Assembly (NCBI GenBank): GCA_017792465.1
Contig: CP051234.1
Location: 3,194,501-3,258,500, forward strand
Direction of reading: 5' to 3'
DNA: 64,000 nucleotides
From: Filomicrobium sp.
GTDB lineage: Bacteria; Pseudomonadota; Alphaproteobacteria; Rhizobiales; Hyphomicrobiaceae
The translations under genes were made by a program, and so were the position numbers. Position 1 is the first letter of the stretch, and the number at the start of each line of letters is the position of its first letter. The notes under the pieces are model-generated. The model saw nothing but the letters and a program-made list of their open reading frames with translations, was not told the DNA's origin and did no database searches. Of the stretch, positions 1,241 through 60,646 are shown piece after piece.

Positions 1241-4200
1241 GCGAACAAGACCCCCACACCACCGCCCGGCTTGGCATTTCGGGCTGGCTGACACGCGCGT
1301 TCATCCAGTCACCGCTGACGCCGCTCATGCTGATCGCCGCTATTGCGCTCGGCGTGCTGGCGCTGGTCGCCCTGCCGCGCGAAGAAGAGCCGCAGATTTC
1401 GGTTCCGCTTGTCGATATCCACGTGCAGGTCGACGGGCTCAAGGCGGAAGACGCGGTGCGGCTCGTGACCGAGCCGCTGGAAACGATCGTCAAGTCGATC
1501 AACGGTGTCGAGCACGTCTATTCCAATACGCTTGACGATCAGGTTCTCGTGACGGCTCGGTTTCTGGTCGGGACGTCTTCTGATGAAGCCATCCTGCGGG
1601 TGCATGAAAAGATCCGCGCGAATTTCGATCGCATTCCAATCGGCATCCCTGAGCCGTTGATCGTTGGGCGCGGCATCGATGACGTTGCAATCGTGACGTT
1701 GACGCTGGTGCCAAAGCCGGAAGCGGCTGACCGCTATCCAGACAATGCGCTTTATCATCTGGCCGACAATCTCCAGATCGAGCTCGCCAAGCTTGATGAC
1801 GTTGGACTGTCCTACGTTGTTGGTGGCCGGCCCGACCAAATCCGGGTCGAGCCTGATCCTGAGAAATTATCGCTTTATGGCGTGACGCTGGCTCAGCTCG
1901 TCGGCAAGATCCGTGAAGCAAACCGGTCGTTCCTTGCGGGCCGCGTTTTGGACAAGGGCCAAAGTATTCCGGTTTCCGCCGGTCAGACGCTTAATGGCGT
2001 TCCCGACATTGGACTTCTGCTGATTGGGACGCGCGATGGCCGTCCCGTTTATGTGCGCGACGTTGCAAATGTTGTCGTCGGGGCCAAGCCGGTCGAACAT
2101 CGGGCCTGGCATTTCCATCGCAATGACGACGGCAGCATGACGCGCGTTCCCGCGGTCACGATCGCTCTTGCCAAGCGGGCAGGCGCCAATGCCGTGACGA
2201 TTGCCGAAGAAATTCGTCATCGCGTCAGCGAATTGGCCCAAACCAAGCTGCCGCACGACGTCGAAGTGATTGTCACCCGCGACTACGGCGAGACGGCCAA
2301 CGAAAAGGCCAACGAGCTTCTCTTCCATCTGGGACTGGCGACGATTTCAATCGTGGCTCTGGTCGCGTTGGCGATTGGCTGGCGCGAGGGGCTGGTGGTC
2401 GCCATCGTCATTCCGGTGACGATCCTATTGACGCTCTTTGCTTCCTATATGATGGGCTACACCATCAACCGCGTCAGTCTCTTTGCGCTCATCTTTGCCA
2501 TCGGCATTCTCGTCGACGACGCCATCGTCATCATCGAGAACGTGGCGCGCCACTGGGCGATGGGCGATGGCCGGTCACGCATTCAGGCTGCGATTGATGC
2601 CGTGGCGGAAGTCGGGAACCCGACCATCGTAGCGACGCTGACGGTTGTTGCTGCGCTGTTGCCGATGCTTTTCGTATCCGGCCTGATGGGGCCTTATATG
2701 GCGCCGATCCCGGCGAATGCTTCGGCTGCGATGGTGCTGTCGTTCTTCATCGCGGTGACGGTTACGCCGTGGCTGATGCTGCATTTCGCCGGTCATAAGG
2801 CGGGTGGGCATGGGGAGCATGAGGCGAGTGATGGCGGCATACTGGGTCGCACTTACGCGCGGGTGGCGAAGCCTATTATCGCTTCGCGTGCGCGGGCATG
2901 GGTCTTCCTTGTCGTTGTTGGAATTTTGACGCTTGCGTCGCTCGTCTTGTTCTACACGCGCTCGGTGACGGTCAAGCTTCTGCCCTTCGACAACAAATCG
3001 GAATTGCAGGTGGTGGTCGATCTGCCGCGCGGGGCCGCACTCGAAGAGACCGACCGGGTTTTGCGGCTGGCGGCCGAACGTCTTTCCGGGCTTGAGGAAC
3101 TCGCCTCCATTCAGGCTTATGCGGGTACGGCCGCACCGTTCAACTTCAACGGTCTTGTGCGTCACTACTACCTGCGCGGCGAACCGCAGCAAGGGGATTT
3201 GCAGGTCAACCTGAAACCGAAAGGCGAGCGCAGCCGCACCAGTCATGAGATTGCGCTTGACGTTCGCGAGCGGCTGTCTGCCGTCCCACTTCCTGAAGGC
3301 TCGGTGGTGAAGGTGGTCGAAGTTCCGCCAGGGCCGCCGGTGATCTCGACGCTGCTGGCGGAGATCTATGCACCCGATGCGGAAGCGCGGCGGCGAATTG
3401 CGAGTGAAGTCCGCGGCATCTTCAAGGACGTTGATTTCATCGTCGATGACGATGACAGTTTTGGCCGCGCCGGACCGCGGCTGCGGATGGTTATCGACCA
3501 GGACAATTTGGAGTTCCATAACGTCGAGCAAAGCGACGTCTACGACACGATCAAATCGTTTTTCGGCGGTGTTGCGGTGGGCTATTCGCACCGCGGTGGC
3601 GGGCGGCATCCCGTTGAGATCGACGTGCAGGTTCCACGTTCGGGGTTGGAGATTTCCGAGAGAATGTTGTCGAGCCCGGTGCCGGCGAACGCCTTGCCTG
3701 GCGGACGCTCGATCGTTGAACTCGGGGACGTCGTGAGCCTGTCGCGGGAGACGGCGTCTTTCCCGATTTTCCGGCACAACGGGCGGCCGACCGAAATGGT
3801 GATGGGTGAACTGGCCGGTGCCTATGAAGCGCCGCTTTATGGCATGCTGGCGGTGGCGGAGCGCATCGACAAAAAGGATTGGGGGAGCGATGGCAAGCCT
3901 GAGATCCTGCTGCATGGTCAGCCGGGCGATGACAGTAAGCCCGCGCTGCTTTGGGACGGTGAATGGGAAGTGACGTGGGTGACGTTCCGCGACATGGGGG
4001 CGGCATTCGCGGTGGCGTTGCTGGCGATCTATATTCTTGTCGTCGCGCAGTTCGGGTCATTCACGATCCCCCTTGTTATTTTGACGCCGGTGCCGCTGAC
4101 GCTCATTGGCATTATGATCGGGCACTGGATATTCGGCGCGCCTTTCTCGGCGACTTCGATGATCGGCTTCATCGCGCTGGCGGGGATCATCGTGCGCAAC

Positions 4201-56126: not shown

Positions 56127-56361
56127 TTTGGCTCCTGAAAGTCATTCCGATATCGGAAACGAATGGGCTGTCATACCGGCAATGGGGGTGAGCGTCACGG
56201 GCAATGCGACAATCAATTCGTCCATCTCCAGTGAAAGTTATACTTTCGCCGCATTCGTCCGGTAGCTGACCGCCCCCTTGGACACGCCATGGGTCCGGGC
56301 TCGTTGAGACCCGGCTGGCGCGCCTCGCTTTGCGGTGAGTGTGTTCCGCTGGTTCAAGGTC

Positions 56362-56437
56362 GAGGCTATAGCTCAGTGGTTGAGCATCTGGGCCATTGCC
56401 CGGAAGGACGAGGGTTCGATTCCCTTTAGCTTCTCCA
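56362..56437 (+). ncRNA. tRNA-like RNA 1 (cloverleaf with 8-nt anticodon loop)
   Basis: These 76 bases fold as a full cloverleaf. The acceptor is GAGGCTA with TAGCTTC (one G-U), followed by T and an encoded CCA. The D stem is GCTC/GAGC. The anticodon stem is TCTGG/CCGGA, and the T arm GAGGG-TTCGATT-CCCTT. The anticodon loop (GCCATTGC) has eight bases and no U at position 33, so no isotype can be assigned. It is either a degenerate tRNA or a tRNA mimic. It abuts the second tRNA-like element. Confidence 0.55.
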
Positions 56438-56519
56438 CGCTCGGTGGTCGAGCACTGGACTCTTAATCCAGCTAGCTGAAAAGCTTTCGCAGGTTCGAAT
56501 CCTGCATTTGCGTCTGCCA
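56438..56519 (+). ncRNA. tRNA-like RNA 2 (tRNA-Lys(CTT)-like without an acceptor stem, long variable arm)
   Basis: This element has a D arm GCTC/GAGC and an anticodon arm CTGGA-CTCTTAA-TCCAG with a canonical loop and anticodon CTT (Lys). The T arm GCAGG-TTCGAAT-CCTGC is perfect and nearly identical to bacterial tRNA-Lys. A 17-base variable region forms its own AGCT/AGCT stem, unlike any normal tRNA-Lys. The bases after the T arm (ATTTGCG) do not pair with the bases upstream of the D arm, which already belong to tRNA-like RNA 1. It is not expected to be a functional lysine acceptor. Confidence 0.5.
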
Positions 56520-56526
56520 AAACGCA

Positions 56527-56580
56527 TCTGGTTTGGGACCAGACTCCTTGACTAACGGGAAGCCGGGCGCCCGGTCCGGC
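56527..56580 (+). ncRNA. Further hairpins downstream of the tRNA-like pair
   Basis: TCTGGT-TTGGG-ACCAGA (56527-56543) is a perfect six-base hairpin. CCGGGCGCCCGG (56563-56574) is a perfect 12-base palindrome within an AGCCGG/CCGGCT stem. They may be the 3' part of one longer structured RNA that begins at about 56362. Confidence 0.4.
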
Positions 56581-56588
56581 TGGTTGCG

Positions 56589-56843
56589 GTGACTGCATTC
56601 GTCTTCGGGCGAAGGTGGAAGCCGTGGCAGCAGCACGGCTGCCGCTATGTGCTGTCGCGGATACCGCTGCAGGACTTCGGCTGGAGCTTCGTGCCCCGGT
56701 TTCTTTGCGTGTCCTTCGGGAGGCGTGAGGGGCCGCAGCGCGCGGCGAAGGTCGACGACTTGCAGCTTAAGCGACAGCCCGCGGTTGGCGGTGTGGATTT
56801 GGGCGTCCGGCGACCTATATGCGTTCGGGTCGTGGGTAATTAG
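56589..56843 (+). CDS. Possible small Trp/Arg-rich protein between the RNA and slipin
   Basis: This is an 84-codon open frame starting with GTG at 56589, with GC-rich third positions and a Trp/Arg-rich product (MTAFVFGRRWKPWQQHG). There is no clear Shine-Dalgarno. It resembles nothing I know. An overlapping frame in phase with slipin is also open here, so coding is uncertain. Confidence 0.25.
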   Translation: MTAFVFGRRWKPWQQHGCRYVLSRIPLQDFGWSFVPRFLCVSFGRREGPQRAAKVDDLQLKRQPAVGGVDLGVRRPICVRVVGN

Positions 56844-56931
56844 AGAAATGAGTTTGGTTCAGACTGCATCAGGCAACTGGAAAGCTGCGCCAATTTCAAA
56901 GGTCAAAAGAATTTGTAAATGGAATAAAGAG

Positions 56932-58080
56932 ATGTTCGGCATCGGTTTTTTCAAAGTTGACGTCAAGGACGGCGAACGCGCTTTCCTTTTCCGCAACGGC
57001 CGTTTCGAGAAGCTGCTTGGTCCGGGTCGTTTCCGGACGTTCGATCTTGCGGGAGAATATTCCGCTGAAGTCATCAACGTGACGCGTGCCGAGATTCCGG
57101 CAGAGCGCGCGCTGATGTTCGAGAAAACGCATCCGCAGTTGGCCGAAAAGAACTTTGAAATCGTGCGGACCTCTTCGGGAGAAGTGGCGGTGGTTTCGTT
57201 TGACGGTGAGCCGATCCGTTTGGTTCGCCCGAACGCGACGCGCGCTTACTGGAAGACTCTGACGCAGGTTGATGTCGAGCGGATCGACGCGGCTGCAACA
57301 GCGCGTGTGCCCGATCGTGTGCTCGACCGGCTGGTGGACTTCCAGACCAACTTGTTCCGCGTCCACTTGGTTGAGGAATACGAAGTCGGCCTGTTGTTCA
57401 TCAACGGTGCGTTTATCGAGACCTTGAAGCCGGGCCGGTATGCGTACTGGGACGTCGGTCGCAAGGTCGAGGTGCGCAAGGTCGATCTGCGTCCGACGCC
57501 GCTTGAAGTCACGGCGCAGGAGATCTTGACCAAGGACCGTGTCGGTATCCGTGTGACGCTGACGGCGTTCTACCGGATCGTCGATCCGCACAAGGCGGTG
57601 CTTGCTTCCGGTGATGTCGCCAACACGCTTTACCGGATGGTGCAGTTTGCCATCCGTGAGGCCGTTGCGACGCGGACGCTCGATGACATCCTTGCGGCTC
57701 GCGATACGATCGACAGCGAGGTTCGTGCGTTCGTCGCGAAGCGGGCGGAAGAGCTCGGTGTCGAGATCGGAGAGATCGGTGTCAAGGACGTCATCCTTCC
57801 GGGTGACGTTCGCGAGTTGTTGAACAAGGTTGTTGAAGCCGAGCGGGTGGCGAAAGCCAACCTCATCCGTCGCCAGGAAGAAACGGCTGCAACGCGGTCG
57901 CTTCTCAACACGGCGCGGTTGATGGAAGACAACCCGCTTCTGTTGCGGCTCAAGGAGCTTGAAGCGCTCGAAAAGCTCGTCGAGAAGGTCGGTAAGATCG
58001 ATCTTCACACGGGCGATGCGGGTGGTTTCGACGCCATGCTGCAGCGGCTCTACAAGTTGAGCGGTAACAAGACCGCTTGA
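56932..58080 (+). CDS. Slipin family SPFH (band 7/stomatin-like) protein
   Basis: This 382-residue protein has no clear membrane helix at the N-terminus. The SPFH core includes LINVTRAEIP-like lead-in (EVINVTRAEIPAERALMFEK), VDLRPTPLEVTAQEILTKDRVGIRVTLTAFYRI and LDDILAARDTIDSEVRAFVAKRAEELGVEIGEIGVKDVILPGDV. A coiled-coil tail (EAERVAKANLIRRQEETAATRSLLNTARLMEDNPLLLRLKELEALEKL) follows. I chose the ATG at 56932. It lies about 400 bases downstream of the tRNA-like pair. Slipins of this type recur near RNA-repair genes; no RtcB is in this window. Confidence 0.88.
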   Translation: MFGIGFFKVDVKDGERAFLFRNGRFEKLLGPGRFRTFDLAGEYSAEVINVTRAEIPAERALMFEKTHPQLAEKNFEIVRTSSGEVAVVSFDGEPIRLVRPNATRAYWKTLTQVDVERIDAAATARVPDRVLDRLVDFQTNLFRVHLVEEYEVGLLFINGAFIETLKPGRYAYWDVGRKVEVRKVDLRPTPLEVTAQEILTKDRVGIRVTLTAFYRIVDPHKAVLASGDVANTLYRMVQFAIREAVATRTLDDILAARDTIDSEVRAFVAKRAEELGVEIGEIGVKDVILPGDVRELLNKVVEAERVAKANLIRRQEETAATRSLLNTARLMEDNPLLLRLKELEALEKLVEKVGKIDLHTGDAGGFDAMLQRLYKLSGNKTA

Positions 58081-60570: not shown

Positions 60571-60646
60571 GGGGCCGTAGCTCAGATGGGAGAGCGCCGC
60601 AATCGCACTGCGGAGGTCAGGGGTTCGATTCCCCTCGGCTCCACCA
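60571..60646 (+). tRNA. tRNA-Ala (anticodon CGC)
   Basis: A 76-base cloverleaf with the CCA end encoded. The acceptor is GGGGCCG/CGGCTCC, the D arm GCTC/GAGC, the anticodon arm CCGCA-ATCGCAC-TGCGG with anticodon CGC, and the T arm AGGGG-TTCGATT-CCCCT. All stems are complete, in contrast to the tRNA-like pair at 56.4 kb. Confidence 0.97.

Follow-up and report, generated by a model that had tools for sequence, protein, structure and literature searches.

Tandem tRNA-like domains in a predicted, conserved structured RNA encoded upstream of a soluble slipin

The locus described here belongs to Filomicrobium sp. (Hyphomicrobiaceae) and lies on contig CP051234.1, in a stretch of 64,000 nucleotides (nt; positions 3,194,501 to 3,258,500) that is called the window in this text. 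Two tRNA-like elements and a slipin gene are found there on the same strand (Table 1). A preliminary description had reported two cloverleaf-like elements placed head to tail without a gap, and this was confirmed. ARAGORN reports 56362-56437 as tRNA-??? with an odd anticodon, the Rfam tRNA model (gathering score 29) matches both elements, and the two abut at 56437/56438 with zero spacer. The anomalies noted at the time also stand. Element 1 combines an acceptor, GAGGCTA/TAGCTTC, in which all positions are paired, with an eight-base anticodon loop, GCCATTGC, while element 2 has no pairing acceptor and carries a class-II-like variable stretch of 17 nt. The tRNA-Ala (CGC) at 60.6 kb (60571-60646) is indeed ordinary and intact, and the slipin start given earlier agrees with the starts of its relatives in the alignment. 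An Rfam scan of the window at E up to 5 returned only tRNA matches, besides two sub-threshold ones overlapping element 1.

The pair is real, as first described, but the feature reaches well past it on both sides. Comparative analysis shows that the locus encodes a predicted conserved structured RNA of about 540 nt, directly upstream of and codirectional with a soluble slipin. In the alignment with 19 relatives, conservation spans about 56288 to 56828 and covers a 5' domain, the two tRNA-like domains and a 3' domain with a long-range closing helix. The further hairpins that had been noticed after the pair were found, followed by the 3' domain, which contains an invariant GGATACCG motif at about 56659-56666. 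The compensatory changes that the preliminary description had proposed to look for are present. RNAalifold on the 19 relatives gives 117 consensus pairs, of which 66 have both partners changed, with pairing retained, in one or more sequences. In the 5' domain and both elements, pairing is maintained in 98.2% of cells, and pairs with double changes number 25 against 9.8 in shuffles. None of 500 shuffles reached any of the covariation measures for this 5' half, and the signal was destroyed when the partners were slid. The most conserved parts of the RNA are the pieces of the tRNA elbow, the D and T arms. A DNA search of 59 genomes found the pair with its conserved flanks in the same genus, in the same family and in another family.

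Table 1. Features of the RNA and slipin locus in the window
Feature	Position	Strand	Description	Basis
5' domain	56288..56361	+	hairpin 56295-56314; stem with inner hairpin 56317-56345 (GGCGCGC...GTGTTCC); linker into element 1	RNAalifold helices with compensatory changes
tRNA-like element 1	56362..56437	+	7-bp acceptor, D-arm, anticodon arm (8-nt loop), T-arm, TCCA end	ARAGORN; Rfam tRNA 50.9 bits; acceptor covariation
tRNA-like element 2	56438..56511	+	D-arm, anticodon arm, variable arm, T-arm; no pairing acceptor, no CCA	Rfam tRNA 33.6 bits; D-, anticodon- and T-stem covariation
Parts of element 2	D-arm 56439-56453; anticodon arm 56455-56471; variable arm 56472-56488; T-arm 56489-56505	+	anticodon loop CTCTTAA	
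Element 2 "anticodon" CTT	56462..56464	+	homologous triplet hypervariable among relatives	
Hairpins linking element 2 to 3' domain	56509..56542	+	56509-56526 and 56528-56542	
3' domain	56556..56828	+	closing helix 56556-56571 / 56802-56817; holds invariant GGATACCG	consensus structure with compensatory changes; conservation
Slipin, 382 amino acids	56932..58080	+	three SPFH1-like beta domains, SPFH domain, long helix; no transmembrane segment	Pfam Band_7, alignment A1, AlphaFold2 models, fold searches, hydropathy

The presence of the pair at homologous slipin loci, on which the preliminary description had made its interpretation depend, supports a tie between the predicted RNA and slipin across many families and in more than one phylum. 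A slipin orthologue (44-80% identity to the window slipin) lies directly downstream in 12 of the 13 loci where the RNA was found, even where the upstream gene differs; in the thirteenth the contig ends before the slipin position. Searching from the protein side, slipin was present in 22 of 199 genomes of the order, in 14 genera, and in most of these genomes tRNA-like elements lie 400-600 nt before the gene. Among 84,980 species genomes scanned, at least 588 relatives of the slipin were found, and the best 80 of these come from Bradyrhizobium, Rhodoplanes, Mesorhizobium, gamma- and betaproteobacteria and one Verrucomicrobia assembly, among others. We then considered the 75 slipin loci of other genomes with at least 800 nt upstream. 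A strict T-arm occurs within 800 nt of slipin in 73 of them, against 0.003 expected per 800 nt, a background rate taken from the same loci. Two slipin loci, L055 and L125, have no recognisable T-arm pair upstream (little upstream sequence is present in L055); the RNA may have been lost there or be highly divergent. The locus is patchy, being carried by about 71 of 119 Mesorhizobium-like and 37 of 118 Bradyrhizobium-like genomes, and no slipin copies were found on phages.

With a covariance model trained only on the relatives of the window (R1), the RNA was found next to slipin in gamma- and betaproteobacteria and in a Verrucomicrobia assembly. Over 387 genomes of the class, the best matches after the window included slipin-bearing loci at 141, 119 and 99.5 bits, an ordinary tRNA-Lys/tRNA-Asn tandem at 104 bits and another slipin locus at 86.7 bits; apart from these slipin loci, the high-scoring matches were tandems of ordinary tRNAs. 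Since ordinary tRNA tandems score 60-104 bits and make up most matches below about 90 bits, under which R1 is unusable alone, its results were interpreted jointly with slipin. Among the 46 tRNA matches of this genome the two elements rank 44th and 46th, outscored by nearly all other tRNAs, as might be expected of tRNA genes that decayed next to slipin by chance. This explanation has hardly any probability left: it is refuted by the conserved association, the covariation and the recovery with RNA alone, and strict T-arms in nearly all homologous loci against so low a background argue that the elements are not beside slipin by coincidence.

The slipin itself, one of a kind of proteins that form rings, scores 109.5 bits with Pfam Band_7 (cut-off 23.6), and an SPFH domain is thus present. 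Its AlphaFold2 model (mean predicted local distance difference test, pLDDT, 79.7) contains three small beta domains, the SPFH domain and a long helix. The N-terminal membrane segment typical of stomatins is absent: the highest hydropathy over 19 residues is 1.1 in the window protein and at most 1.7 in the 19 relatives. The best matches of the model among solved structures are stomatin, HflK/C and prohibitin. The major vault protein (MVP) also matches (Foldseek E 5e-10). Taken alone, the N-terminal repeats give Z 5.9 to the SPFH1 domains of erlin/prohibitin and Z 3.6 to MVP R1-R7; because they fit SPFH1 better than vault repeats, a vault relationship of slipin is no more than possible.

Comparison of 66 tandem pairs from relatives shows that the two predicted tRNA-like domains cannot decode. 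The acceptor of element 1 is paired at 291 of 329 positions over distinct sequences, with many pair types, against a shuffle maximum of 187, and its anticodon loop varies from 3 to 9 nt. In the acceptor of element 2 three inner positions pair (96-100%) and the outer three are near chance level. Its loop has 7 nt in 59 of the 66 pairs, with U33 in 51 of those 59 and A37 also in 51. CCA follows element 1 in 43 of 66 pairs and element 2 in 2 of 66. A 7-nt loop with a fixed anticodon at the orthologous locus, as in a functional tRNA, is found in neither element; a paired acceptor together with CCA is found in element 1 and is missing in element 2. Spare working tRNAs, which would replace cut ones in translation as in the Anabaena trn operon, are therefore a very improbable explanation given the variable loops of element 1, the loss of the outer acceptor and CCA in element 2, and triplets among the relatives, such as ATT and AGG with A34, that bacterial tRNAs active in translation are not expected to carry. 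In its favour are the usually full acceptor and CCA of element 1 and the ordinary tRNA arrays beside slipin in some records. These arrays, which resemble the Anabaena trn operon, place 4 to 32 extra tRNA genes next to slipin and the tRNA-like elements; they were seen in L115 (428-4043), L106 (7992-11703), L129 (3863-5215), L134 (4071-4875) and L135 (3838-4678).

The triplet in the anticodon position of element 2 is hypervariable. Parsed loops contain 10 different triplets among 75 Mesorhizobium-like sequences and 14 among 55 Bradyrhizobium-like ones, these genus labels being assigned by identity with the named loci L142 and L076. Column rates were obtained by parsimony on trees made without the loop. 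In the Mesorhizobium-like set, positions 34 and 35 are the two fastest of 285 columns (25 and 21 changes; mean 2.1), and in the Bradyrhizobium-like set positions 36 and 34 are the two fastest of 272 (15 and 14 changes; mean 2.3). The anticodon stem, U33 and A37 are mostly retained despite these changes. When the triplet total was compared with random triples of four-fold degenerate slipin sites, P was 0.0014 for the Mesorhizobium-like and 0.0046 for the Bradyrhizobium-like set, with about 30 taxa each and with codon bias, recombination and the modest sample size as limits on the test. As far as these alignments go, the excess over synonymous sites is suggestive of diversifying selection.

The rate of the triplet also bears on the possibility that the RNA is a scaffold. 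Its tRNA-like domains would then dock it on slipin, on RtcB or on enzymes that bind tRNA, building a repair particle in the manner of Y RNAs with Ro, and the triplet would merely be unconstrained. Conservation and structure of the entire RNA, including the 5' and 3' domains, would suit this role, as would the elbow arms being its most conserved parts and a T-arm/D-arm order at the junction that resembles YrlA, with related loci having a YrlA-like junction. On the other hand, there is no Ro (TROVE) gene in this genome, and a triplet changing faster than most synonymous sites is not readily given by lost constraint when loop length, U33 and A37 are retained. We consider the scaffold unlikely, yet the strongest of the rival explanations.

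Gene neighbourhoods show that the predicted RNA family belongs with bacterial RNA repair (RtcB, RtcA, RtcR, RlaP). Several gammaproteobacteria have the gene order rtcR (divergent), rtcB, rtcA, RNA, slipin, and among 87 neighbour proteins scanned there were 10 matches to RtcB, 7 to RtcR, 5 to RtcA and 2 to RlaP, a predicted restorer of nucleotides lost at cut RNA ends (PMC7824862). In a Citrobacter record a divergent rtcR is followed by a sigma-54-type site, by the remnant of the RNA, of which a T-arm is left, and by slipin and RlaP. The arrangement in an E. coli record is similar but for the lack of rtcR. The suggestion in the preliminary description that slipins and tRNA mimics recur around RtcB/Ro operons holds for RNA repair, as relatives have rtcB, rtcA, rtcR and rlaP on the flanks of the RNA and slipin, and finds no support for Ro and Y RNA: TROVE (Ro/Rsr, PF05731) has no match in this genome and is present in 3 of 22 slipin genomes, and the YrlA threshold is not reached. 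A Ro-based mechanism for this genome was accordingly rejected. It had also been stated that no RtcB is present and that the link is conjecture. None is indeed adjacent in the window, but the genome has an RtcB 0.63 Mb from the locus, and in the order sample 12 of 22 genomes with slipin have RtcB, against 24 of 177 others (p = 4e-5, uncorrected for relatedness). Two GTPase-like open reading frames adjoin this stand-alone RtcB gene (L255, 8995-11857), and in L115 RtcB lies directly downstream of slipin. PADLOC defence families gave no match.

RtcR is activated by tRNA 5' halves from anticodon-loop cleavage (PMC7790460). Sigma-54-type sites with one mismatch were found upstream of slipin in all three enterobacterial or Burkholderia loci (L295, L296 and L297, the E. 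coli, Citrobacter and Burkholderia records). At 0-3 mismatches no sigma-54 site was found upstream in the window, nor in any of the 75 loci of the main set. RtcR/sigma-54 control was rejected for this genome, which has neither RtcR nor an upstream site; without RtcR, induction by cut tRNA is conjectural in this bacterium. The Burkholderia site lies immediately before the RNA 5' domain. This, and the constant position and orientation of the RNA upstream of slipin, would fit a 5' leader of the slipin mRNA that acts as a sensor, in which an anticodon nuclease, by cleaving element 2, would alter folding or processing and turn slipin on. Such a leader seems improbable, slightly more so than the scaffold, as the closed 3' domain stops about 105 nt before the start codon, the start region is not visibly sequestered, and the gammaproteobacterial RNA lies between rtcA and slipin, not at the start of the operon.

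Anticodon cleavage of tRNAs is a central weapon in conflicts that involve bacteria, phages and plasmids, and knowledge of the cellular countermeasures is incomplete. The explanation we prefer, with a probability of roughly 45%, is that the RNA diverts anticodon nucleases as a bait or decoy and is kept together with slipin, both being produced jointly at times of tRNA cutting. Element 1 would present the tRNA body and element 2 a normally shaped anticodon loop, whose triplet shifts quickly between species. The RNA may thereby act as an expendable bait by which anticodon nucleases, such as toxins, phage-exclusion nucleases or bacteriocins of competitors, are drawn away or reported, and the slipin oligomer would hold it, perhaps along with repair enzymes. 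Expression, slipin binding and the bait or decoy action are all inferred. The preliminary description had left a decoy and a sensor side by side; the hypervariable anticodon favours a bait or decoy, as judged from the alignments.

Several observations weigh against this preferred explanation. RtcR is absent from this genome, no consensus sigma-70 promoter was found in the window, and RtcB was not detected in 10 of the 22 slipin genomes of the order sample. In the genus to which the window belongs, element 2 no longer has even its inner acceptor pairs. The partner role of slipin is presumed from linkage only. Fast change of the triplet could reflect relaxed constraint and mutation bias, the synonymous sites of GC-rich genomes are an imperfect neutral yardstick, and both rate tests are modest in size. 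If the bait or decoy is nevertheless correct, a tRNA shape that is kept while decoding is lost and the anticodon outpaces nearly all its surroundings would testify directly to an arms race with anticodon nucleases. A specific candidate RNA partner would also be at hand for slipins, a widespread but little understood group of proteins.

A broader and more doubtful proposal is that the locus represents a new RNA-protein class: a soluble slipin cage would hold a large RNA whose tandem tRNA mimics have an anticodon in rapid rotation, which selection would have diversified as bait for anticodon nucleases, as a distant functional parallel of the vault and its RNA and of Ro and Y RNA, and a possible source of YrlA. 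The eukaryotic vault (major vault protein and vault RNA) shares the layout of beta repeats, SPFH-like domain and long helix, and an associated small RNA. Against this, stomatin and HflK/C score higher overall with slipin than the vault protein does, the N-terminal repeats of slipin are nearer to SPFH1, and the RNAs are unrelated. GOLLD, ROOL and OLE are large structured bacterial RNAs, some of them near tRNAs. The slipin-linked RNA is likewise large and structured, but the window has no Rfam match besides tRNA and the two sub-threshold ones on element 1 (E up to 5). The Anabaena TrcR regulon, in which slipin, rtcB, rsgA and a 26-tRNA operon are co-regulated under translational stress, also joins tRNA genes, slipin and RtcB, there by co-regulation; its tRNAs are ordinary and lie on a megaplasmid, slipin is elsewhere in the genome, and no tRNA-like pair is described there (PMC10272220). 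A literature search found no earlier account of tRNA-like elements beside slipin; it did not cover Burroughs and Aravind 2016, the likeliest place for an earlier mention.

The closest comparison is with YrlA (Rfam RF02553, rsr-yrlBA-rtcBA operon), likewise a tRNA-mimicking non-coding RNA encoded with RtcB/RtcA/RtcR. The slipin-linked RNA differs in its length (about 540 nt against 114), its two tRNA-like domains, its hypervariable anticodon and its partner gene, which is slipin here and Ro/Rsr there. RF02553 has no match in the window at E up to 5, and three relatives score 26.9-38.9 bits against a gathering score of 69, so membership in YrlA was rejected. The Rfam model of YrlA describes a permuted tRNA, in which a T-arm, a hairpin and a D-arm follow one another, and where the two tandem elements meet the order is likewise T-arm then D-arm. 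In L054 and its sister L052 (about 2990-3223, minus strand) the D-arm of element 1 is gone and its 3' acceptor strand pairs with the 5' strand of element 2; this YrlA-like permuted junction scores 38.9 bits in L054, below the RF02553 threshold. Therefore YrlA could have arisen, as a permuted junction, from such a tandem tRNA-like pair, which would offer a plausible origin for its circularly permuted tRNA mimic.
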